Below are positions 1 to 18,349 of a stretch of DNA of 20,982 bases, piece by piece. The DNA lies in the IMG/VR virus record IMGVR_UViG_3300002835_012783, positions 1-20,982 of that record; one strand, given 5' to 3'. The notes beneath the pieces are model-generated. The model made no database searches, was not told the DNA's origin, and was given only the letters and a program-made list of their open reading frames with translations. How positions within the stretch are numbered: the first letter of the stretch is position 1; each line of letters opens with the position of its first letter. The position numbers and the translations under genes were made by a program. Origin of the DNA: a virus.

Positions 1-566
1 ATGGTTACTACTTGACCTACATAATTAAGTAAATTTACACCAGTTGTAGTCCAATCTCTCCATCTTACGTTTTGATAGTTTATGAAACCAGGTACATTCC
101 CTCCAGCAGCAACTTGATAAAAAGTACATGGAATTATACTTCCGTTTTGATTTCTAACTTGCATTTCAAAACGAGGTTGAGCAATAGGTGGGTGACCTGG
201 GTCTTCTAAAACAACCGCATAACGATAAATAAATAACGCATTTTGGTTTGATACAACAAACGAGTAAGTTAAACTTTCTGCTTGTGCACCTACCTGACTA
301 TTACCTAAACGAGCTGACTGAGGAATTCCTGGTGGAGTTCTAGTCAAAGTCGGTACAATAGGATCTAAACCAGGAGTCATAATTGTATGACGACCATTTT
401 GAATGGTATTCGGATTGGTAATTGTTATTGGGCAACAAGTGCCAATTCCTCCTACCCAGTTTTGAAAACCGTTCATGGAAAAATCAGCATTTGGACAGTT
501 ACCACCAGGTTGTCCTAAGACATATCCCCATGTTAATAGGAATAGTAGAGTTAAAAAGCGTTTCAT
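1..566 (-). CDS. Secreted Bacteroidetes-type adhesin-like protein, N-terminal part (3' end outside window)
   Basis: The reading frame opens at ATG 566-564 and stays open for 188 codons to the window edge, so this is the N-terminal part of a longer protein. Residues 1-18 form a signal peptide (MKRFLTLLFLLTWGYVLG, then Q). The region around residues 100-188 has a pattern I recognise from the N-termini of large Bacteroidetes surface proteins: a beta-rich stretch (LTYSFVVSNQNALFIYRYAV), then PRFEMQV and VRWRDWTTTGVNL near residues 168-179. Such proteins often carry a C-terminal T9SS signal, which cannot be checked here. The start overlaps the TGA stop of the preceding gene (ATGA), indicating translational coupling in a secreted-protein operon. 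The function is unknown; a cell-surface or glycan-binding role is inference. Confidence 0.85.
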   Translation of the reverse strand, partial: MKRFLTLLFLLTWGYVLGQPGGNCPNADFSMNGFQNWVGGIGTCCPITITNPNTIQNGRHTIMTPGLDPIVPTLTRTPPGIPQSARLGNSQVGAQAESLTYSFVVSNQNALFIYRYAVVLEDPGHPPIAQPRFEMQVRNQNGSIIPCTFYQVAAGGNVPGFINYQNVRWRDWTTTGVNLLNYVGQVVT

Positions 567-1132
567 CGTAGTAGTGTTAATTGTCCAAGAATATTATCGT
601 AATATGGCTTCTTATTTTGAGTATAGTTAATACGATAAGTATATACACCTTGAGGGACTATTGTACCATTGTAGGTACCATCCCACACAAAGTAAGGATC
701 TTCAGACTGAAATAATTGAGTACCCCATCTGTCGTGTATAGTGACATAAAAGGAGGTAAATTCCCATTGCTCACCATAAATTGAAAAAGTTTCATTTAAT
801 CCATCTCCATTAATAGTAATACAGTTAGGGATATATAAAGTAAAGCAAGGACTAACGGTAACATACAATGCTCTGTAAGGGCCTTCACAATTAAATTCAC
901 TTATCTCTCTTACTTTGATGGCATAAGTTCTAGTTGTATCTTCAGGCCACTGTACACCAATTGTATTACCCGACTGGCCAATCAACATAGTATCAATATA
1001 CCATTCATAAGTTGAATTAGGATATCCTTCCACAGCATAATATTGGAAAGATGATGCCCTACATAAATCAACTCTCTGTTGACCGAATAGAGGACTAATT
1101 GCTAGCAATAATAAGAATACAAATCTAGTCAT
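563..1132 (-). CDS. Small secreted protein with Ig-like domain and gliding-motility/T9SS type B C-terminal domain (CHU_C)
   Basis: 189 residues. Residues 1-18 are a signal peptide (hydrophobic run FVFLLLLAI, cleavage near FGQ). Residues about 22-95 resemble an Ig/PKD-like fold with NSTYEWYID. Residues 100-189 match the gliding-motility-associated C-terminal domain: IPN (101-103), NGDGLNE (108-114), DRWG (134-137), WDG (150-152), PQGVYTY (160-166) and a final GQLTLLR. In Bacteroidetes this domain directs export and surface attachment through the type IX secretion system (type B signal). Host proteins with it are usually far larger; here it has one short domain in front. It overlaps the upstream gene by 8 bases and the downstream gene by 4. 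A surface-displayed protein made during infection is the simplest reading; the role is unknown. Confidence 0.9.
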   Translation of the reverse strand: MTRFVFLLLLAISPLFGQQRVDLCRASSFQYYAVEGYPNSTYEWYIDTMLIGQSGNTIGVQWPEDTTRTYAIKVREISEFNCEGPYRALYVTVSPCFTLYIPNCITINGDGLNETFSIYGEQWEFTSFYVTIHDRWGTQLFQSEDPYFVWDGTYNGTIVPQGVYTYRINYTQNKKPYYDNILGQLTLLR

Positions 1133-1667
1133 GGATAACTGGTGAAGTGTTTGGTAATGGGTAAACTGTAAAGGATGTACCTGCTGAGGTTGTACAACCT
1201 GCTATATTTGTGTAAGTGTAGGTTACGTTATATATACCTGGGTTGAGTGGATTAAATAATCCTCCTGAACCGTTTCCATTTACTATCCACGTACCTCCTG
1301 CTGGGAATGCTTGAAAATTAAATGCTGGTGAATCTTGACAAATATTTGCTATTGGTAGTACTTGAACAACGGGTTGCATGATTTCAATCAAACATACAAC
1401 AGGATTACCTACACATCCTTGAGAGTTGGTTTCTGTAACTGTTAAGGTATAAGTACCGTTTGCTTGCCCCCAGTTAATTGCTACCTGATTAGATGGAGAA
1501 TTGATTAAGGTTCCTCCTCCAGTTAATGACCAATTATAAGTAGAGCCTGGAGTGTTTTGAACCCAATAATTAATTGAATCACCAGCACATACTGTATCAG
1601 GGCAACTAAACTGAGCGCTTAAATTAAGGCTAAAAAATAAGGCTAATATTGATAGTAGGGATTTCAT
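1125..1667 (-). CDS. Secreted two-domain Ig/PKD-like protein
   Basis: 180 residues. A signal peptide covers residues 1-19 (MKSLLSILALFFSLNLSAQ). Two tandem Ig-like domains follow. The first, about residues 22-96, has the typical Bacteroidetes pattern VCAGDSINYWV, GSTYNWSLTGG, INWG and GTYTLTVTETNSQGC. The second, about 100-168, has ICQDSPAF, FPAGGTW, GLFNP and GIYNVTYTYTNIAGC. Paired cysteines (for example C22/C27, C85/C92, C110/C158) suit an exported, disulfide-containing protein. There is no CHU_C domain; the C-terminus is NTSPVIHD, similar to the end of the secreted protein at 2524-3123. It sits 2 bases after the lipoprotein gene and overlaps the following gene by 8 bases. Function unknown; adhesion or surface display is inference. 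Confidence 0.85.
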   Translation of the reverse strand: MKSLLSILALFFSLNLSAQFSCPDTVCAGDSINYWVQNTPGSTYNWSLTGGGTLINSPSNQVAINWGQANGTYTLTVTETNSQGCVGNPVVCLIEIMQPVVQVLPIANICQDSPAFNFQAFPAGGTWIVNGNGSGGLFNPLNPGIYNVTYTYTNIAGCTTSAGTSFTVYPLPNTSPVIHD

Positions 1668-1669
1668 AA

Positions 1670-2512
1670 TTAATTAGTTGTACAATTTACAAATTCGTAT
1701 CCAGTACCTGTCTTTTTCCAGATGATAAATACAAGCTCCATTTTGCTCATATCCCAGTTGCTGTTGTATTCGATAGTTCGAGCCCAATGATATACACCTC
1801 CAGCACTTAAACTGGTGAATACTTCTTCTCCAAATGCACCAGCTGCAATAGCTGATTTAGCTAGTACATGATGATGTATATGCGGGTTTTGAGTACTACC
1901 ATTTTGAGCAGCTTGAATTTCTTTGTATAGAAATAGAGCAGACATTGTATAAGTACCCGATAAATTATCTAGAGCCTTTACATATACATTTACATTTAAT
2001 TTACCAGCATTTTTACCAGCTCCTTGAGTTACATGAGTACCAATAGATAATTTAGGGGTTTGGTTGTTTTTATTTGCTATTTCACTTGGGATACCTGAGG
2101 TACTGGTACCGACAAAAGTTTCATTAACAAAGAAATTAGGTGTTCCTGTATATTGCCATTTAGCAGAAAATTCATCAACTAATGGCCCATTATCAGGTGT
2201 AGTTAGTGCATCGCTAATTTGTAAAGACATAGCCAATGCCCTGCCCTTATGATTAGCATACAGCTCTTCAAATCTTGTAACTCCCCAACCACCACAAGGA
2301 CCACACCAAGTAGCAGTAAACTTACCAAAGATTGAATTTTGCAAACTATCGATATAAACACACGACCCGTTGTCAATAACAGCATCTGGATTATAGTTAA
2401 CTGATTTAGGATCAGTACACCCTTTGACTACCGTTCCATCATCAACCAATAAGGTTGATTCTTGGCAAGCCATTAAAAATAAAGTTGTTAAAATAAATAG
2501 ATAGTGTTTCAT
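1670..2512 (-). CDS. Omp28-like thioredoxin-fold lipoprotein
   Basis: 280 residues. The N-terminus is a lipoprotein signal with lipobox LMAC (residues 13-16, Cys16 lipidated). Residues 31-53 hold one copy of the Bacteroidetes calcium-binding-like repeat GCTDPxxxNYNPxAxxDNGSCVY. From about residue 60 a thioredoxin-like fold follows, with ATWCGPC and the CxxC pair at Cys70/Cys73, as in Omp28-related outer-membrane proteins. The substrate cannot be told. The protein would be anchored in a membrane of the host envelope, possibly facing outward. It sits 11 bases after the upstream secreted gene and 2 bases before the next, so it is part of the same operon. A thiol-redox lipoprotein on a phage genome is unusual. 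Fold assignment is fairly sure; biological role is not. Confidence 0.85.
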   Translation of the reverse strand: MKHYLFILTTLFLMACQESTLLVDDGTVVKGCTDPKSVNYNPDAVIDNGSCVYIDSLQNSIFGKFTATWCGPCGGWGVTRFEELYANHKGRALAMSLQISDALTTPDNGPLVDEFSAKWQYTGTPNFFVNETFVGTSTSGIPSEIANKNNQTPKLSIGTHVTQGAGKNAGKLNVNVYVKALDNLSGTYTMSALFLYKEIQAAQNGSTQNPHIHHHVLAKSAIAAGAFGEEVFTSLSAGGVYHWARTIEYNSNWDMSKMELVFIIWKKTGTGYEFVNCTTN

Positions 2513-2523
2513 GTTGTTTAAGG

Positions 2524-3123
2524 TTAATTGTGAGATATGGGTGAAGTTGAGACTGTAGAACCGTTTATTGTACCATTAAATATATTAAAAGGAACAGTTG
2601 GACATCCATTAATGCCCCAACTACCCCATGTACCATCAGCACCCGCAGTTATTTGAATTAATAAATTCTGGGGAGTGCATTGCTGAGTGGCAATTAGCTG
2701 AAAGCAAAAAGACCAACTACAGTTTATCCCAAAATCTCCCCAATCATTTCCAGGGTTACCATCTACTGGTCCAGCAGGGCCTTCATAAAACCATCCAGGA
2801 CCTACTGTAATTCCTGTTGAGCTAGAAGTTACTGTATTTGCAACCCAAATCCATTGACCTGCATTAGAACAGTTAATTGGAGCTGCTGAAGGTATTACTG
2901 AAGTCCATCCAGGCCCTAAGTTAAGGTCAAATCCTTCTAACCAATTAGACCCAAATCCAGTACCATTCCATCCAGTCATTGTATAACATACTGTTACCAC
3001 TGTACCTGGAGAGTAGGTGTTGTTAGTTGGTTGAGGATTTAGAGTAAAGGATTGTTGACCCGCACATTGAGCGTTAATATGAAGGGAAAAAATAAAACCT
3101 AATAAAGTTAAAAGAACTTTCAT
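2524..3123 (-). CDS. Secreted protein of Bacteroidetes surface type, function unknown
   Basis: 199 residues. The signal peptide is residues 1-19 (MKVLLTLLGFIFSLHINAQ). The mature part is rich in Gly, Trp, Asn, Thr and Cys, with GTVVTVCYTMTGWNG, NWLEGFDLNLGPGW and GINCSWSFCFQL, giving a beta-rich exported protein. I recognise this general pattern from N-terminal regions of large Bacteroidetes surface proteins but cannot name a family. The C-terminus is STSPISHN, like the NTSPVIHD end of the protein at 1125-1667. It starts 5 bases after the stop of the kinase gene and is followed by the lipoprotein gene after 11 bases, so it is the first gene of the secreted cassette. No transmembrane segment is seen beyond the signal. 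Confidence 0.8.
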   Translation of the reverse strand: MKVLLTLLGFIFSLHINAQCAGQQSFTLNPQPTNNTYSPGTVVTVCYTMTGWNGTGFGSNWLEGFDLNLGPGWTSVIPSAAPINCSNAGQWIWVANTVTSSSTGITVGPGWFYEGPAGPVDGNPGNDWGDFGINCSWSFCFQLIATQQCTPQNLLIQITAGADGTWGSWGINGCPTVPFNIFNGTINGSTVSTSPISHN

Positions 3124-3128
3124 TTTTG

Positions 3129-3665
3129 TTATTTGTTATAAATATGTTGTAGGATGGCCTCTATACGTTCTTGAGTTGAGCCTTTAATTTCTTTATAACT
3201 CTTGATTTTATCTCTATACATTCGTAGAATTTGTTGAATAGTTTGATCTATCTGATTCCTATAGATAGGATCTGTAGTTCTAACTCCATTATCTTCAATT
3301 TCAACTCCTTCAGGAGAAATGTAGAAAATATAATCATACTCATTTAGTAGACATTGAGCATACATTTCAAATCCAGCTTTATCTATAATATTGATTGAAT
3401 TAGCATTTAAAGTAAACGCCATAACATCAATAACAGTTCTATCTGTGATTACATTGTCATACATTAATTCAGTACACCTTTCAGCCAAAAATATAGTTTG
3501 ACCTTTTAATGTTGAATCTGTATTAAGAGGAATACCTAAATCCCTAAGATATTTTGAACGTTCAGTAGCAAAATGATAATCTTTAAATTCAGGTAATTCC
3601 TTTAAGGCATTAACTAAAGTAGTTTTGCCAACACTTTGACTCCCTGTGAAACCTATACGGGCCAT
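3129..3665 (-). CDS. NadR-like P-loop ATPase/kinase (AAA_28 type)
   Basis: 178 residues. Walker A is GSQSVGKTT (residues 8-16). A Walker-B-like segment VITDRTVID lies at 72-80, and a lid-like GVRTTDPIYRNQI at 127-139 has the arginine expected in NadR-type nucleoside kinases. These features fit the AAA_28/NadR family, whose members phosphorylate nicotinamide riboside or related small molecules. Phages often carry such enzymes for NAD or nucleotide metabolism. Only the kinase domain is present; there is no adenylyltransferase or DNA-binding domain. The start codon overlaps the end of the endonuclease gene by 13 bases, and the first secreted-protein gene follows after 5 bases. The substrate is inferred; a general P-loop kinase is certain. 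Confidence 0.85.
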   Translation of the reverse strand: MARIGFTGSQSVGKTTLVNALKELPEFKDYHFATERSKYLRDLGIPLNTDSTLKGQTIFLAERCTELMYDNVITDRTVIDVMAFTLNANSINIIDKAGFEMYAQCLLNEYDYIFYISPEGVEIEDNGVRTTDPIYRNQIDQTIQQILRMYRDKIKSYKEIKGSTQERIEAILQHIYNK

Positions 3666-4805: not shown

Positions 4806-5414
4806 TTATTTCCAAAATTTAATATAGTTATTTTTTAAAAATTTATCAAAACCATACAATTTTAAACGTTGCATGGTTAACATGACTATATTTTGATTTG
4901 TTTTAGCTACTGTTTGTTTATCTCCTGTTATACTCCAGGGTATAAAAAATACTTGATAAAGTTCCCATAACCAACTAGAGTTTTGAGAATTAAGATTATC
5001 ATAGGTATCTTTATTTATTTCTATGAATTTAATTTCATTTATTTTTTTAGCGAAATATCTTCTAAATTCTCCAATTTGATAATCTTGAGGAGTAGGTTGA
5101 GGAACTATGGGGTATGGAATATTTTTAGGGGCCAATGAAGGATTAATAACATTTAAATATTCTAAATTACCATAAGCCACCTCACTAGTATATACAGGAG
5201 TAAAATTAACATCAGAATGTAATTCTCCAGGTACATTAGGTAAATTAATAAGTTTTTCAACTGGTTTATCTTCTGGTGTTTTACCAGTGAATAATTCTCC
5301 TGTGTATAATTTATGATAATGTCCTTTATATACTTGACCTGTACTTTCTATAGCATATTCATTTCCGTTTGTGTACAGATTTGTTATAATTCTGTTTTTA
5401 GGGTAATAGCTCAT
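4806..5414 (-). CDS. Conserved-looking phage structural or baseplate-associated protein, function unknown
   Basis: 202 residues, no signal peptide or membrane segment. The N-terminus has YYPKNRIITNLYTNGNEYAI followed by YKGHYHKLYTGELFTGK, a pattern I associate with a hypothetical protein often found after the baseplate hub in environmental T4-like phages. The middle is Pro-rich (NIPYPIVPQPTPQDYQ) and the C-terminal half is predicted helical (FRRYFAKKINEIKFIEI, LTMQRLKLYGFDKFLKN). The start codon shares one base with the hub stop (TAATG), so it is translationally coupled to the hub. A terminator follows directly. A baseplate or tail-assembly role is inferred from position only. Confidence 0.65.
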   Translation of the reverse strand: MSYYPKNRIITNLYTNGNEYAIESTGQVYKGHYHKLYTGELFTGKTPEDKPVEKLINLPNVPGELHSDVNFTPVYTSEVAYGNLEYLNVINPSLAPKNIPYPIVPQPTPQDYQIGEFRRYFAKKINEIKFIEINKDTYDNLNSQNSSWLWELYQVFFIPWSITGDKQTVAKTNQNIVMLTMQRLKLYGFDKFLKNNYIKFWK

Positions 5415-8371
5415 TATGAATATGTTTTTTCTGATTTTTTAATAGCGGCCGTTGGTGGTGAAATGGTTCTATTCAAGTAAGCAATAGGATCAAGTCGTGG
5501 AAGATCACTATCTTTGCCTCCTACTCTTATTTCATAATGAAGATGAACACCAGTACTAGGATACCCTTTACTGCCCATTTCAGCCACAACCTCTCCCCTT
5601 GATACGGGTGTGCCATCTTTAGCTGCCCCCTTCCCAATTCTAATATCATTATGTCCTAAGAAATGATAATTATTTGTTCCATTTTCTTTTATTATAACAA
5701 CTTGATCTCCAAATGATGCGGGGCCAAACCCACCATTAGAAATAATACCATCAACAGGTGAAATGATGCGAGTTCCTTTACTCCCGGCAATATCTACACC
5801 ATAATGGTTTTTAACATTTCCATTTATGTTTCTGTTAGGCTTAGGTAAAGAAGTTACTGTTACCTGGGAGCCTTTTACAGTAGGTACCCAATTTGGATAA
5901 ACACCAAATGTAAAATCTGTAAAATTAGAATTTACTATTCCTGCTTTAATTAAAGTATTATTGACAGCTTGTTGAACTGTTTGGGGGGGTGGGGGAGAAT
6001 ATGTTTTTAAAGATCCTGAAGCTTCAGGAACTGACATTGTTTCTATTTTAGTAGTCCATTGTTTTGTATCAACTGTATGGCTAATGGCTTTAACTATTAG
6101 AGCTATTTGTCCTTCATCATAAGTTAAGGGTAATACTCCTTTAGACATTTTAAATTTTTCAAATAATCTAATACCACTAATACCATCTAAAGTCATATTA
6201 AGATTATATGGAATAAAAAATGGAGCATCAATATTTCCATCTTTTGAATATTTTTGTGAAAACAATGTATTTACCTGAGAGTTAGCATTTTTTAGATAAT
6301 CTATATTTTCATCAGTAAATTGTTTTTTACCATAAACTTGGGTAAATATACTTTTAAATTTTCCTATATCAAGAGGAGCTTCTTCTTCCTTATACTTTTC
6401 TCCGTTTGATTTTTTAGAGGATTTTTCTAAGATAATTCTATCTGTTAATCCTTTATTATACTTTTCAAAAGAATAAGCATTTTGAGATATATTAGTACTA
6501 TTAACTTGAGCTCCAACTGAGATAGCAGTTGAAAATTGATTTGATATTTCTGAGTTTAACTGAATATCTTGTACAAAACTTCCTTCTACTCCCGGTTTTA
6601 CTCCAAATACATTTAATGTTGTAAATTTATCTGGTTCTCTGCTAATATTAAAATCACTCCCGTTGTATGTCATAGGGGTTTGGTCGTATATTTTGATAGT
6701 TAAATTATCTCTATCAGCATAAACAGTGAAATTATTTATTCCTCCTAAACATACATTAACATCATCCATTATTTGTTGGAGTAATTTTACTAGAGTAGCT
6801 ACTCCATCTTCTTCTTTTGTTAGAGAATTTAATACCCCAGCTAAATATTCTATGTTAAGAAGAATATGTCCCATTTTACCAACAAAAACATTAGCATTTC
6901 CCGTTTTAAAATTAGGAAATTCATTTCTAGCATTAGTCCCATTAATAGAGCCATTTAATATTGGGGCAATATTGTAATAACCGGTAACTCCCCCTCTTGT
7001 TGGGTTAAGAACAACATCATTTATAATACTCCCAGTAGCTAATGAATCTATTATTTCATTTAAATTTTGATGAACAGGAATTAAACATATTCTAGGGTCA
7101 GAGGAAAATTGGTTTGGAGGGGAGAAAAAATAATTTTTATCAACTTCGGTAGTGGTACTATTAGTTAATCCAAAATAATCATAATTAAAATCAAATTTTA
7201 TTTGAGGTGAATCTCCATTATATAATCCACATTCTGTTTCAATAAAATACAATAAAGAGGCTAGAGTTATATGAACACTATAAGTTGTAGATACCCTATA
7301 AGAAAAACCTAAATTAAAATACTCACGTATTTGAGATGCTGGGTATTTGTAGATATTTTTTTCGTATTTAGGTTCTACTTGGCCATTGATAGTAGGTATA
7401 TTCCTGTTAAATACATGATTGGTTATAGTTTTTGTACCTTGTGACTCATATATCTCAAATAACCATTTATTAATTTTGGATGATTCTTTTTGAGCTACAA
7501 TTGCAGGTACTTCCTCAGTAGATTCTGTTGAAGATTCTGTGATACTCTCTGAGGGATTATCAACCACATTCATTTTTAATGATTCTATAATAGAACCATA
7601 AGCTATCAATTCTAAATTAATGTCATAACTTCCATCTCTATTAAAAGACCAACTAAATTTAGAGACAGGTCCTATGAAACCTTCATAATTTCCTTTATAT
7701 CTTTCTTTTTCAATGTTAATTTGATTTTGAATAACATATTGGTCTACTAAAAGTCTAACTTCACCTGATGGAGCAGGTCTAGTTGTAGTTCCCCTCAAAA
7801 AACTTTCTAATGGCGCGGACTGAAATTTATCCCATTGTTGTAAATTTCCCCCATTATCAAGATAAACAGTGTGACCAAATTCAAGCAATATTGAATAACC
7901 TGGTCTCATATAGAGATAATCAATTAAGGCAAATTGTTCTCTACTGTATGCTTTTATTTTAATAGTGGCTTTAGCTAAAGCTCCATTATTATAGTAACTA
8001 ACATCAGCTGATGTTATACCAGGCATAGGGACAAATCCTCTTTCTCCTATTCCTCCCCAACCATATTCTCCATTTAAGGCACTGTTTGAAAAGTTTATAC
8101 CTGATTGTAGATTACCTGATTCATTTGATGCTCCACCAAATAATATAAAATTTTTAGCTAAATTAGCTCCAATTAAATTTGCATCTATACCTAATTTTGC
8201 TATAATACTACCATCAACATCTACAGAACTAGCTAATCTTAACCAAGGGGTTTTAGTAGTGACCCATTTTAATGTATTAGGATCAATATTAGTTTTACCT
8301 AAAGCTTGTTGCCTTCTTTCAATTTGAGTTTTAACCCAGGACTGGAATGGTTCTCCAATAATATTGGCCAT
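5414..8371 (-). CDS. Baseplate hub protein with C-terminal M23 peptidase
   Basis: 985 residues. The N-terminal part has hub-like motifs: PMPGITSADVSYYNNGALAKA (116-136), YLYMRPGYSILLEFG (152-166) and a repeat-type ending GPVSKFSWSFNRDGSYD with GSIIESLK (234-266). A Ser/Glu linker lies at 271-290. The C-terminal about 150 residues form an M23 (lysostaphin-like) metallopeptidase: zinc ligands H856 and D860 in HYGVD, H943 and H945 in HLHYE, and H907 in LGHND. M23 enzymes cut peptidoglycan cross-links, so the hub would open the cell wall during tail contraction, the job done in T4 by lysozyme on gp5. The gene follows the LysM-like gene after 1 base and is coupled to the next gene. Hub identity is from context and motifs; the peptidase is certain. 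Confidence 0.85.
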   Translation of the reverse strand: MANIIGEPFQSWVKTQIERRQQALGKTNIDPNTLKWVTTKTPWLRLASSVDVDGSIIAKLGIDANLIGANLAKNFILFGGASNESGNLQSGINFSNSALNGEYGWGGIGERGFVPMPGITSADVSYYNNGALAKATIKIKAYSREQFALIDYLYMRPGYSILLEFGHTVYLDNGGNLQQWDKFQSAPLESFLRGTTTRPAPSGEVRLLVDQYVIQNQINIEKERYKGNYEGFIGPVSKFSWSFNRDGSYDINLELIAYGSIIESLKMNVVDNPSESITESSTESTEEVPAIVAQKESSKINKWLFEIYESQGTKTITNHVFNRNIPTINGQVEPKYEKNIYKYPASQIREYFNLGFSYRVSTTYSVHITLASLLYFIETECGLYNGDSPQIKFDFNYDYFGLTNSTTTEVDKNYFFSPPNQFSSDPRICLIPVHQNLNEIIDSLATGSIINDVVLNPTRGGVTGYYNIAPILNGSINGTNARNEFPNFKTGNANVFVGKMGHILLNIEYLAGVLNSLTKEEDGVATLVKLLQQIMDDVNVCLGGINNFTVYADRDNLTIKIYDQTPMTYNGSDFNISREPDKFTTLNVFGVKPGVEGSFVQDIQLNSEISNQFSTAISVGAQVNSTNISQNAYSFEKYNKGLTDRIILEKSSKKSNGEKYKEEEAPLDIGKFKSIFTQVYGKKQFTDENIDYLKNANSQVNTLFSQKYSKDGNIDAPFFIPYNLNMTLDGISGIRLFEKFKMSKGVLPLTYDEGQIALIVKAISHTVDTKQWTTKIETMSVPEASGSLKTYSPPPPQTVQQAVNNTLIKAGIVNSNFTDFTFGVYPNWVPTVKGSQVTVTSLPKPNRNINGNVKNHYGVDIAGSKGTRIISPVDGIISNGGFGPASFGDQVVIIKENGTNNYHFLGHNDIRIGKGAAKDGTPVSRGEVVAEMGSKGYPSTGVHLHYEIRVGGKDSDLPRLDPIAYLNRTISPPTAAIKKSEKTYS

Positions 8372-14930: not shown

Positions 14931-15299
14931 TTAAAAATCATCATCATCATCCTCATCATCATCCTCATTAAATTCTTCATCATCTCTGAATGAATCATAT
15001 ATATCGTCTTCTGTACTCGAACTAAAGTTTTCGTATGTTAATTCACCATTAGTTAATTTAACTAGCATATCAATTACATCATCTGGTTGGTTTTTAACCA
15101 TTATATCCCAATAATCTCCAACCATCTTATCATCCATTGTCCCACCAGTTATTTTTGATAGTATATTAGTTATAAAATCAGGTTGATTTTCAACTAAATA
15201 AGTAAATGACTTTTTAACAAGATCCTCAACAGGATTTGATTCATTCATAACTTCAGAGATCTCCTCTCTGATTAGTTTTCTTAGTTGATTTAGTTTCAT
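14931..15299 (-). CDS. Small acidic protein with MKLxxLRxLIxEE N-terminus
   Basis: 122 residues, no known family. The first 20 residues (MKLNQLRKLIREEISEVMNE) are nearly the same as in the next two upstream genes. The middle has two similar halves of a short unit: LVENQPDFITNILSKITGGT and MVKNQPDDVIDMLVKLTNGE, an internal duplication of about 40 residues. The C-terminus is an acidic tail (DDEEFNEDDDEDDDDDF). It starts 2 bases after the upstream stop, so it shares an mRNA with the gene at 15302-15571. A virion-targeting role for the N-terminus is only a hypothesis. Confidence 0.7.
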   Translation of the reverse strand: MKLNQLRKLIREEISEVMNESNPVEDLVKKSFTYLVENQPDFITNILSKITGGTMDDKMVGDYWDIMVKNQPDDVIDMLVKLTNGELTYENFSSSTEDDIYDSFRDDEEFNEDDDEDDDDDF

Positions 15300-15301
15300 A
15301 G

Positions 15302-15571
15302 TTATTGTTTATACATACTGTATAATTTTTTAACCTTTTCCTCATATCCAAGATTCTTAAGTTGATTCATAAGAGACTTAATTTCTTCGTGCTGATATTC
15401 ACCTCGTCTATATGCTCTATGATCATCAGACATAAAATATGTCCAATCATGAGTCTTTAAAAGAGATTCTAGTTTGTTAAATAATTCTTGAGATGTTGAT
15501 GACATTGTTTCATCTCCGTTCATTGAGGCTAATTCCTCTCTAATTAATTGTCTTAATTGATTTAGTTTCAT
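15302..15571 (-). CDS. Small protein with MKLxxLRxLIxEE N-terminus
   Basis: 89 residues, no recognised family. The N-terminus MKLNQLRQLIREELASMN is shared with its neighbours. The rest is polar and helical with aromatic residues (LLKTHDWTYFMSDDHRAYRRG, MNQLKNLGYEEKVKKLYSMY). A class-2 promoter-like element ends 13 bases before its ATG and overlaps the stop of the upstream gene. The gene at 14931-15299 follows after 2 bases. Confidence 0.7.
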   Translation of the reverse strand: MKLNQLRQLIREELASMNGDETMSSTSQELFNKLESLLKTHDWTYFMSDDHRAYRRGEYQHEEIKSLMNQLKNLGYEEKVKKLYSMYKQ

Positions 15572-15584
15572 AGTTTTTGTTTTT

Positions 15585-15605
15585 ATAAATATACGAATAA
15601 TATTT
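15585..15605 (-). promoter_or_regulatory. Class-2 promoter-like element before the gene at 15302-15571
   Basis: The minus strand has AAATATTATT, then CGT, then ATATTTAT, with the same spacing as the other two copies. The -7-like TATATTTA is present, but the TTTG expected 20 bases upstream is absent. It overlaps the TAA stop of the upstream gene. Confidence 0.5.
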
Positions 15606-16042
15606 TAGGTAGATTTATGTTGGAATCCTTTACCGGCCATAAGTTGTGATCCTCTTTGATTTAACCATTTTTTAGCTTTGTTTAATGAAGCCGCTACATT
15701 ATATTGACCATGAACCTTTTCACCAGGAATGTCTTCTAATTTATTTCCATTTTTATCCATTATGTAAGTCTGAATATAATAAAAATAATGATGAGGAAGA
15801 TTAAAATCTAATTCTTCACCTTCAGGGGTTAAAACATATCCCTGAGTTTTAAGTTGAAAATTTAATCCTTCAGGAGTAGTATACATTTCATCTTTTATAT
15901 CAAGTGTATATTTATCATGTATTTTATTCCCAAACTCACTTTTACTAGTTTCTTTAGAGATTATTTTGTAAGATGGATTTACCTCATTAATAGCTTTAGA
16001 AATTTCCTCTTTGATTAGTTGTCTTAATTCTTGTAATTTCAT
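15605..16042 (-). CDS. Protein with MKLxxLRxLIxEE N-terminus, function unknown
   Basis: 145 residues, no recognised family. The N-terminus MKLQELRQLIKEEISKAINE belongs to the shared set. The rest is a mixed alpha/beta domain with GNKIHDKYTLDIKDEMYTTP, LTPEGEELDFNLPHHYFYY and KAKKWLNQRG near the end. It lies between the tube gene and the next tagged gene, each with a class-2 element. The promoter element ends 3 bases before the ATG, so little or no leader is expected. Confidence 0.7.
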   Translation of the reverse strand: MKLQELRQLIKEEISKAINEVNPSYKIISKETSKSEFGNKIHDKYTLDIKDEMYTTPEGLNFQLKTQGYVLTPEGEELDFNLPHHYFYYIQTYIMDKNGNKLEDIPGEKVHGQYNVAASLNKAKKWLNQRGSQLMAGKGFQHKST

Positions 16043-16078: not shown

Positions 16079-16567
16079 TTAGAAGTTCAAAATACAGTAA
16101 TCCATTCCTAAAGTTAGAGTCAAGTTTTGAGCTACTGATTCATTATCCCATGAAAAATCACCTTGAGCAAAGTTCTTAATAAAAGCTCCTTTGATGATCC
16201 ATTCAGAAACAATATCACCTACTGGACCTAGAATGTCTAAAGTAATATCTTTTTTATAGAAATCAGAATAACCATCTCTACCTGTTACTGATTCATGATG
16301 TAGACGAACCCATTCCATACAAGCTTGAGCACCTGAAGGAGTAATTGGGTCAAATAATGTTAAAGTAACATCATTCCAGGTTAATTTACCTTTTACTTTA
16401 CGGTAAACATTGATGTGGTTAAGTTTGATTTCGTCTTGAGAAAATCCTAGACCACTGATTCCTTTAATTGTATAAGCGGGGATTCCGTCAATATACATAA
16501 TAAAACGATTCTGTAGTTTAGGTTCAAAAGCGGTAAAGAATATTTCGTTTGGATTTAGTACTGCCAT
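16079..16567 (-). CDS. Tail tube protein (gp19-like)
   Basis: 162 residues, the usual length for T4-type tube proteins. Motifs: FEPKLQNRFIMYIDGIPAYTIKG (14-36), SQDEIKLNHINVYRKVKGK with the tube-type loop, LTWNDVTLTLFDPITPSGAQA, and C-terminal FAQGDFSWDNESVAQNLTLTL. This is the T4 gp19 family. The protein stacks as rings around the tape measure to make the inner tube. It follows the sheath gene in the standard T4-like order. A late-type promoter variant ends 18 bases before the ATG, allowing separate expression from the sheath. Confidence 0.93.
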   Translation of the reverse strand: MAVLNPNEIFFTAFEPKLQNRFIMYIDGIPAYTIKGISGLGFSQDEIKLNHINVYRKVKGKLTWNDVTLTLFDPITPSGAQACMEWVRLHHESVTGRDGYSDFYKKDITLDILGPVGDIVSEWIIKGAFIKNFAQGDFSWDNESVAQNLTLTLGMDYCILNF

Positions 16568-16615: not shown

Positions 16616-18349
16616 TTATGCAAATGTTACTCCAGTAGGTAGAATGTTAAAATCTAAATAAACAAATTCAGCAGTTTTGGTAGGTTGTAAATAAATACCA
16701 CCTCTTAACTCATTTCTGTCAATCACATCTGGAGTATTATTTGAATCATCCATTACTACTCTAAATGCATATAGACCTTGTCTTTGTTGTACAGATTCAA
16801 GATATGGATTAACTTGAGCTAGGAATTGATTTCTAGTGGCAGTAGTGTTTTGTTCAAATACTAAGTTGTCTGCTACTTGAGAAATATATCCTTTTAACTC
16901 AATTAACAATCTTCTAACATTTACTCTATCAAGAGCTGATGCTTGTTTTTGTAGTGTTTTCTGTCCAAATACTACTACACCAGTATTAGGGAATGTAGCA
17001 ATTGGGTTTACTTTTCCTTGATATAAAGTATCTCTGTCTGAGTTGATTAATTTACGTTCAGCTTGAATTACTTGACCTAATCCACCTCTGTTAATACCTG
17101 CAGGGGCAAACCATGCTTCAGCAATTCTATCGTTATTAGCGTAAACTCCAGGGATCATAGTAGAAGCTGGAACCCATACATTTTTACCTGAGTCTGGGTC
17201 TGTGGTTTGTAACCAAGGCCAGTAAGCAGCAGCATATGAAGTATCACGAGAAGCAGCTTGACTAGTTACAGCACCAATTGAAGAACCATATCCTACTAGG
17301 TCAATAGGGGCAATAGCATCTCCTCTATTTTCAATATTTGTAATTAAAGTACTTAATACTGTTGAATGACCTGCAAATGCATCAATTAAGCCAGGAGCTG
17401 AAATAATGTTGTATCTGTATTCGTCTTTATTTGCTAATAAATTAAACACATCAGTATAATTGGTTCCTACTAAACCTTGTGAGTTAGTATTAGTAATATC
17501 TTGGTAATATTTGTTATTTCCTCCGATATTACCAGTAGCATTTTCAAAAGCACCACTTTGTGCAATTGGAATAGAAGAAGTATAGGCATTAATTCTAACA
17601 TCACCATTACTATCAAGATAATCTACAGTAGTTAGAGATACATTGCTTACTCTTACATAGCGAGAAGAGTTACGATATGAACCAGATGGTTGTAGATAAA
17701 TATCAGCTGTACCCGCGTTACGAGTAGTTAAGGTTTGATCACCAATAATTCTAGCTACGTAATTTGAGGAATTAGGATCTAAAGATAAGTTAGTCCATGT
17801 TTCTAGAACAGTTTTGTTATTTGTTCTATCATCACCTCTTCTAATTAATAAACCAAAAGTACCTGAGGCAGTATTAGGAGAAACAATTTCCCATCTTAAA
17901 TTATCTCTTGAACCGCTTGCTAATACACCTTGAGCATCTTCTGGGCCTACACTGTTCATAATTACACCATCACTTAGAGTTTCTAAAGTAAAGGCATTTA
18001 ATGAACCAATGTTAGCACTTGAGGAAATGGGTTGAGATACTGCTGGAGTATATGAACCTGAGGCTACTCTAGTTACAATTAAACTAGTTCCACCATTTTG
18101 GAAATAGTTGTAAGCTGAGATAGAGGTAAAATAAGTATATGTTTGAGCATCTGTTACTGATCCACTGTTAAAAGTAGTACCAAAATAAGCTTGATACTCA
18201 CTATAAGTAGTAATAAGTTTAGGTACTCCTACTTTACCTTTTACAGTTGGACCAACAAGAGCGGCTCCAGCTTGAATAGGTAAGCTAGTAACTTGAGATT
18301 GGTCGTTTTCTCTAGCTAGTACACCGGGTGATAGTAAAATTTCTGCCAT
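16616..18349 (-). CDS. Tail sheath protein (gp18-like)
   Basis: 577 residues. The N-terminus LSPGVLARENDQSQVTSLPIQ with GAALVGPTVKG is typical of contractile sheaths. The C-terminal domain has WVPASTMIPGVYANNDRIAEAWFAPAGINRG, LYQGKVNPIATFPNTGVVVFGQKTL, RVNVRRLLIELKGYI and a late ELRGGIYLQPTKTAEFVYLDF. Sheath subunits surround the tube and contract to drive it through the envelope. The middle third (about 130-300) is the variable surface-exposed insertion region of this family. It is preceded by an exact late-type promoter and followed by the tube gene. Confidence 0.95.
   Translation of the reverse strand: MAEILLSPGVLARENDQSQVTSLPIQAGAALVGPTVKGKVGVPKLITTYSEYQAYFGTTFNSGSVTDAQTYTYFTSISAYNYFQNGGTSLIVTRVASGSYTPAVSQPISSSANIGSLNAFTLETLSDGVIMNSVGPEDAQGVLASGSRDNLRWEIVSPNTASGTFGLLIRRGDDRTNNKTVLETWTNLSLDPNSSNYVARIIGDQTLTTRNAGTADIYLQPSGSYRNSSRYVRVSNVSLTTVDYLDSNGDVRINAYTSSIPIAQSGAFENATGNIGGNNKYYQDITNTNSQGLVGTNYTDVFNLLANKDEYRYNIISAPGLIDAFAGHSTVLSTLITNIENRGDAIAPIDLVGYGSSIGAVTSQAASRDTSYAAAYWPWLQTTDPDSGKNVWVPASTMIPGVYANNDRIAEAWFAPAGINRGGLGQVIQAERKLINSDRDTLYQGKVNPIATFPNTGVVVFGQKTLQKQASALDRVNVRRLLIELKGYISQVADNLVFEQNTTATRNQFLAQVNPYLESVQQRQGLYAFRVVMDDSNNTPDVIDRNELRGGIYLQPTKTAEFVYLDFNILPTGVTFA

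Follow-up and report, generated by a model that had tools for sequence, protein, structure and literature searches.

A type B T9SS sorting domain in a phage protein belongs to a three-gene set that may form a surface fibre

A linear, 20,982-bp IMG/VR virus record (IMGVR_UViG_3300002835_012783; this whole stretch is referred to here as the window) encodes a short protein that combines a signal peptide with a complete type B sorting domain of the type IX secretion system (T9SS), and that belongs to a set of three small genes found, split or fused, across many phage contigs. Our favoured reading, which we hold with a little better than even confidence, is that the set encodes a three-subunit surface fibre made late in infection, its subunits being exported by Sec and then by the host T9SS with the help of a host PorP/SprF shuttle. 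If this reading is right, many large Bacteroidota phages place a compact fibre outside their host by way of the host's own T9SS.

A short phage protein ends in a type B sorting domain

The initial annotation of this DNA had assigned to the 563-1132 product a type B C-terminal sorting domain (CTD), and profile searches bear the assignment out: the protein scores 51.5 bits against TIGR04131 (E 8.6e-14; residues 101-188, profile positions 3-84 of 85), for which the curated cut-off is 35 bits, and 60.1 bits against PF13585 CHU_C (E 2.3e-16; cut-off 27 bits). The domain reaches the extreme C-terminus (residue 188 of 189), and across the CHU_C family it is conserved up to the last residues; five motifs, A-E, within the last 100 residues are described as required for type B secretion in the available text of PMC12618676. 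In the window record TIGR04131 has a single match; 14 control genomes gave no match. At its other end the protein begins with MTRFVFLLLLAISPLFG followed by QQ, a Sec-type signal that places a glutamine after the likely cleavage site, as in the Q-rule described for Bacteroidetes in the accessible part of PMC5837995. Signal peptides here and below were called heuristically, by eye and with simple script rules that look for a hydrophobic stretch near the N-terminus and for a cleavage site of the Q-rule type.

An AlphaFold2 model of the protein (mean pLDDT 84.8) places strands at residues 17-94, which form one Ig-like domain, and at residues 104-188, which form the CTD; the claim that a single short domain precedes the CTD is thus confirmed, and the low-confidence N-terminus of the model fits a signal peptide. 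Since the phage-encoded protein carries both T9SS export elements, we would naturally infer from its sequence that it uses the host T9SS. After signal cleavage at the site as read here, 172 aa remain, fewer than the up to 235 aa reported in the available text of PMC12618676 as necessary for efficient type B secretion, so that the protein might be used as a naturally occurring type B module of minimal size.

Table 1. Genes of the window and their positions
Feature	Positions	Strand	Description
Second tip-type protein ORF	3..566	minus	Ends at contig edge after 188 codons
CHU_C piece	563..1132	minus	189 aa, ATG start; signal peptide (about 1-17, Q at +1), Ig-like domain (17-94), type B T9SS CTD (101-188)
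Ig/PKD-like piece	1125..1667	minus	180 aa, own signal peptide, tail SPVIHD
Omp28-like lipoprotein	1670..2512	minus	280 aa, WCGPC motif, PF11551 E 3e-12
S5 piece (label coined here)	2524..3123	minus	199 aa, own signal peptide, tail SPISHN
Thymidylate-kinase-like gene	3129..3665	minus	phrog_2107 E 2.6e-27; directly upstream of the secreted set
Tail tube protein	16079..16567	minus	In relatives, the split cassette comes directly after the tail tube gene
Tail sheath protein	16616..18349	minus	53.6% identical to Flavobacterium phage immuto sheath

The protein is one of three pieces that occur split or fused

The genes considered here are tightly packed on one strand, and downstream of the thymidylate-kinase-like gene five secreted-looking ORFs follow one another: S5, the Omp28-like gene, the Ig/PKD-like gene, the CHU_C gene, which overlaps its predecessor by 8 bp, and ORF 3-566. 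Three of these products, S5, the Ig/PKD-like piece and the CHU_C piece, align respectively to the N-terminal, middle and C-terminal thirds of phage proteins of 505-604 aa (best E values 7e-76, 6e-26 and 3e-23); in the split form, the break falls at the linker that joins S5 to the next domain of the fused protein. Searches with Pfam and TIGR04131 profiles detected no sorting CTD in the S5 or Ig/PKD-like pieces of the window, and Pfam PKD models match the latter below cut-off only.

Relatives of S5 occur on 28 IMG/VR contigs, in most of which S5 forms the N-terminus of a 505-604 aa protein; TIGR04131 matches are present on 26 of these contigs and on none of the 22 sheath-relative contigs searched, all of which may be fragments. 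(The underlying neighbourhood comparison covered 50 of 108 loci: 22 of 80 sheath loci and all 28 S5 loci.) A CHU_C profile scan of IMG/VR gave 454 relatives, the best 80 of which were kept for analysis; an apparent lack of CHU_C relatives in an IMG/VR scan with a single sequence had been an effect of the method. Sorting the resulting 110 loci (the window, L107-L134 and L182-L262, which include these best 80 of 454) yielded 41 split triples, 38 fused proteins, 14 pairs of PKD-like and CHU_C genes without a short S5 in view, 10 short CHU_C genes alone, one S5 and PKD-like pair at a contig end, and six other arrangements. Some contigs were reached twice, and counts below are accordingly given as distinct sequences from these 110 loci.

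After removal of repeats, at least 30 split triples and at least 24 fused proteins remain, each fused protein having the three parts in the order S5, PKD-like, CHU_C. In all 30 distinct triples the three genes share one strand; their order is S5-PKD-CHU in 28 and PKD-CHU-S5 in the other two, and both intergenic gaps are 25 bp or shorter in 24. At least 49 distinct short CHU_C proteins, 170-211 aa long, share this form, and within that phage family the length of the window protein is ordinary. Its small size is therefore no peculiarity, nor does the protein stand alone: it is a member of a three-gene set. Q-rule-like cleavage sites are present in 32/32 S5, 38/41 PKD-like and 39/49 CHU_C pieces, as delimited by a simple ORF caller that leaves some start positions uncertain. 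The closest pairs of pieces have dN/dS values of 0.06-0.28, which indicates purifying selection; values at larger divergence were saturated and were discarded.

S5 is a domain of large host proteins

Inspection of host genomes gave the same domain in another setting. A first scan of genome contigs had returned two loci and suggested that S5 was confined to phages, a view overturned by a profile search that found it in 75 of 395 Bacteroidia genomes. Among the matches listed, host S5 frames run from 345 to 6145 aa, apart from a single one of 223 aa; the expectation that host counterparts are usually large thus holds for S5-linked proteins, with that one exception. Twenty host stretches were fetched, 18 of which were readable (one was incomplete, and in another the ORF caller gave no S5 ORF). 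All 18 S5 proteins read to their end are single polypeptides of 750-1714 aa that finish in CHU_C, which argues that S5 belongs to large host type B cargo. Judged by these sequences, S5 is a domain of such cargo, of which the phages carry a compact or split version: S5 lies towards the N-terminus and CHU_C at the C-terminus as in the phages, but the 18 host proteins are unsplit.

In a tree of S5 sequences the split forms cluster, with two fused rows inside the cluster (support 86/89), an arrangement that takes two changes; fused forms make up the host row and the long-branch rows. Fission of a fused ancestor is the likelier origin of the split form, rather than fusion of separate genes, though only tentatively so, since some fused seams still carry the motif ITHN.

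A C-terminal tail is common to the two pieces that lack a sorting domain

Across the 110 loci, the tail I-x-H-[N/D/Y/F] closes 29 of 32 distinct S5 and 37 of 41 distinct PKD-like pieces, compared with six of 1222 other ORFs from the same loci (distinct sequences of at least 60 aa, some of them spurious). Five of these six background ORFs were flagged as signal-peptide-like (one each in L186, L187 and L188, and two in L228); those of L186, L187 and L188 encode a different tip protein in the place of S5, related by eye to window ORF 3-566, and the sixth (L192), whose start is missing, is PKD-like by eye. Both tails are present in 27 of the 30 distinct triples, and in all 27 the class of the last residue (N/D or Y/F) matches between the two pieces, as happened in 0 of 10,000 shuffles that did not control for kinship. 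In the window, S5 ends in ISHN, fitting the pattern, and the PKD-like piece ends in VIHD, which has V for I and falls outside the strict form. I-x-H is also kept at six of 18 fused seams, five times as ITHN, so that the tail may be an inherited linker and not a joint between subunits. This tells against a pure docking tag: the tail may represent an inter-domain joint that the split pieces inherited from the fused form or handed on to it.

A proposed surface fibre and competing explanations

In host bacteria, type B cargo is reported to exit the translocon with a PorP/SprF shuttle, which anchors the cargo and is needed (PMC12618676, PMC9143113 and PMC10994853, in the parts available). Searches for PorP/SprF found none in 32 phage records, the downstream side of the window being cut by the contig edge; two host MAGs, searched as a positive control, gave 12 and 13 matches. 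The phage cargo would accordingly be expected to rely on a shuttle of the host. Cargo genes usually, but not always, have a shuttle gene next to them: in Flavobacterium johnsoniae, according to the accessible text of PMC12618676, three of 12 type B cargos are encoded without a neighbouring shuttle gene and all three use one host shuttle.

The strong sorting-domain match, the alignment of the three pieces to one fused protein, the recurrence of split and fused forms, the shared tails, the cleavage sites, the host S5 proteins that end in CHU_C, the lack of a phage shuttle in the records searched and the purifying selection in the closest pairs together lead us to favour a three-part fibre in which S5 would be an exchangeable tip, the Ig/PKD-like protein a connector and the CHU_C protein the anchor. 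Host Sec would export each of the three subunits; the host T9SS translocon would recognise the type B CTD of the CHU_C protein, and a host PorP/SprF shuttle would catch this protein, which would then be fixed outside the infected cell. S5 and the connector, having no sorting domain, would in all likelihood accompany the anchor or assemble with it, the three proteins being joined through the C-terminal tail common to S5 and the connector. Displayed late in infection, such a fibre would screen or change the surface of the cell, superinfection being one thing it might guard against. We infer T9SS export, complex formation, timing and surface function of the set, as well as the crossing of passengers with the CHU_C carrier; for late expression, the sole pointer is the position of the set in the tail module of relatives. 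The nearest isolated relative, Flavobacterium phage immuto (Immutovirus), has a type A cargo instead of a type B one, which counts against the fibre reading, as do the lack of TIGR04131 matches on the 22 sheath-relative contigs, the I-x-H kept at some fused seams and the VIHD ending of the window's own connector. Nor do we know of any T9SS substrate composed of non-covalent subunits.

A more tentative proposal, possible though on balance doubtful, is that the set is a split T9SS substrate, a host-type adhesin cut into three Sec-exported proteins, two of which would ride on the sorting-domain carrier by means of an I-x-H-[N/D/Y/F] docking tail. A split substrate would, if real, be the first T9SS cargo of several subunits known to us and a carrier and passenger system for this machinery, and it poses the question of whether the T9SS can carry passengers that have no sorting domain.

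The best placed of the rival readings, which we judge unlikely, holds that the CHU_C piece alone reaches the surface, that S5 and the PKD-like piece stay in the periplasm or are released at lysis, and that the three genes are linked by descent from a fused protein. The lack of a detectable T9SS CTD in those two pieces fits this reading, as do the order PKD-CHU-S5 in two of the 30 distinct triples and, in the window, L109 and L110, the presence of other genes that separate the pieces; against it stand the covalent connection of S5 to CHU_C in all 18 host proteins and at least 24 distinct phage proteins, and the conservation of the two tails to the last residue.

The genomic position of the cassette bears on a further reading, very unlikely in our view, in which the pieces are virion structural proteins (a Hoc-type decoration of tail or capsid) that merely resemble secreted cargo. 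The cassette does adjoin sheath and tube genes in several relatives: as far as it is in view, the split set lies directly after the tail tube gene in L119, L132, L240, L241, L242, L245, L250 and L259; in L191, L203 and L209 a connector-like gene and the sheath come after it; and in L236 sheath- and tube-like genes lie beyond CHU_C. A weak match to T4 Hoc (E 1.6e-4) also covers part of the alignment of the CHU_C family. Virion assembly takes place in the cytoplasm, however, and the pieces have signal peptides with Bacteroidota-type cleavage sites, with a CTD conserved to the last residues; a Hoc-like protein would be expected to have no export signal, whereas the CHU_C protein has both a signal peptide and a sorting domain.

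More doubtful still is a shuttle decoy, an abundant small type B cargo that would occupy limiting PorP/SprF and so keep gliding adhesins such as SprB from reaching the surface. Type B shuttles are described as limiting and needed in stoichiometric amount (PMC12618676, in the text available), SprB and RemA are possible phage receptors according to the accessible part of PMC13288928, and the 32 phage records have no PorP/SprF of their own. The same portion of PMC12618676 nevertheless describes shuttles as fairly specific for their own CTDs, and a decoy leaves the conserved S5 and PKD-like partners unexplained. Under the fibre reading, the set gives a way into the question of how phages change a host surface bearing candidate receptors such as SprB.

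The initial assignment of the gene to a phage is upheld by a neighbouring contractile-tail module, whose tail sheath, tail tube and baseplate genes lie on the same strand of the window and have products that match PHROGs, and by close relatives of the cassette within tail modules on other contigs. A chimera, whether by misassembly or by host DNA misplaced on a viral contig, was already disfavoured and is scarcely credible: S5 and CHU_C domains do occur in host genomes too, but the set is present on tens of viral contigs, some within tail modules, 12 of the 28 S5 contigs carry a tail sheath or terminase match (E 1e-3 or better), two phage records of more than 600 kb, LR745206.1 and LR756502.1 (634 and 642 kb), have four and three TIGR04131 matches, and hosts show no split form among the matches listed, except possibly the one 223-aa frame.

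In each of these large records, several T9SS sorting domains of type B accompany one or more of type A, and one of the domains ends a 1670-aa protein. A 322-kb contig encodes a fused protein (L130) together with a short PKD-like and CHU_C pair led by a different tip protein (L187). A further match, in MT839536.1, was dropped as bacterial on account of uvrA-like and lytic-transglycosylase-like ORFs recognised by eye; this 4.2-kb record from a phage collection resembles bacterial DNA.

Relation to known T9SS cargo

The view that a T9SS route had not generally been described for phages holds only in part. Type A cargo has already been proposed for Cryophage (Bellas et al. 2020, PMC7468147), where it might act in superinfection exclusion or in competition between strains; its proteins likewise carry T9SS sorting domains and are proposed to use the host system, but, in the portion of that paper available, these are type A domains on enzymes and PA14, whereas the window has type B and non-enzymatic Ig-like pieces in a three-gene set. 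Sorting domains have similarly been noted in crAss-like phages, near or fused to BACON proteins (PMC6949934); these are BACON repeats, with no split set described in the accessible part of that source, as opposed to the S5, PKD-like and CHU_C set of the window. PMC10013915, as far as its available text goes, deals with a host genome and has no bearing on phage cargo. In the open-licence papers searched, phage T9SS cargo of type B or in split form did not come up, which makes its absence from print no more than a tentative conclusion; what would be new here is the type B class and the split set, phage T9SS cargo as such having been proposed before.

Host type B adhesins such as SprB and PG1035 have a signal peptide and type B CTD as here and are anchored by a shuttle; according to the available parts of PMC12618676 and PMC9143113, they are single polypeptides, often with an adjacent shuttle gene, whereas the phages have three short proteins and no shuttle gene was found in 32 records. 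Closer to the window, gp15 of phage immuto is likewise secreted, short (243 aa) and equipped with a T9SS sorting domain, but it joins a cohesin domain to a type A CTD, in contrast to the type B CTD of the window protein. This gene (L003:12691-13422) is annotated merely as a cohesin-domain protein. A cohesin and dockerin parallel within immuto gp13-gp15 was considered and set aside: gp15 has the cohesin, but the segments of gp13 and gp14 yielded no dockerin.

With respect to fold, Foldseek returned generic Ig-type folds only, with low TM scores. For the model of a fused phage protein the best PDB matches are fragments of GhpA, the grappling hook protein of Aureispira, a generic fold match; GhpA also has a C-terminal CHU_C-like stretch, but at 5898 aa it is a cellular protein quite unlike the short phage pieces.

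Neighbouring genes

The contig edge cuts a second candidate cargo. Residues 24-188 of ORF 3-566 match, at 95% identity, the N-terminus of a phage type B cargo of 1347 aa (L261, L262) that contains many PKD-like repeats, and the DNA is 84.7% identical to the start of that cargo gene, a similarity that makes it probable that the window holds a second, long T9SS cargo gene.

The Omp28-like gene, which separates the S5 and PKD-like genes in the window, encodes a lipoprotein 74-94% identical to those of six viral contigs (L021-L026). Where the tail proteins of these contigs are in view, their identity to the window's is no more than about 21-55%. High identity on contigs with such dissimilar tail proteins suggests that the gene moves between phages, as it seems to do from these comparisons. 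In L109 (8550-9758) and L110 (1868-3088), the corresponding place between S5 and the PKD-like gene is occupied by a secreted protein of 402-406 aa with a type A CTD match, so that types A and B stand in one run.

Elsewhere in the window, three small adjacent ORFs (14931-15299, 15302-15571 and 15605-16042) begin with similar peptides, MKLNQLRKLIREE, MKLNQLRQLIREE and MKLQELRQLIKEE, and diverge thereafter; MKLDQLRSIIKEE is found near the corresponding place in a relative. Finally, the 985-aa baseplate-region protein encoded at 5414-8371 carries a metallopeptidase/endolysin-like domain at about residues 840-980, its C-terminal end.
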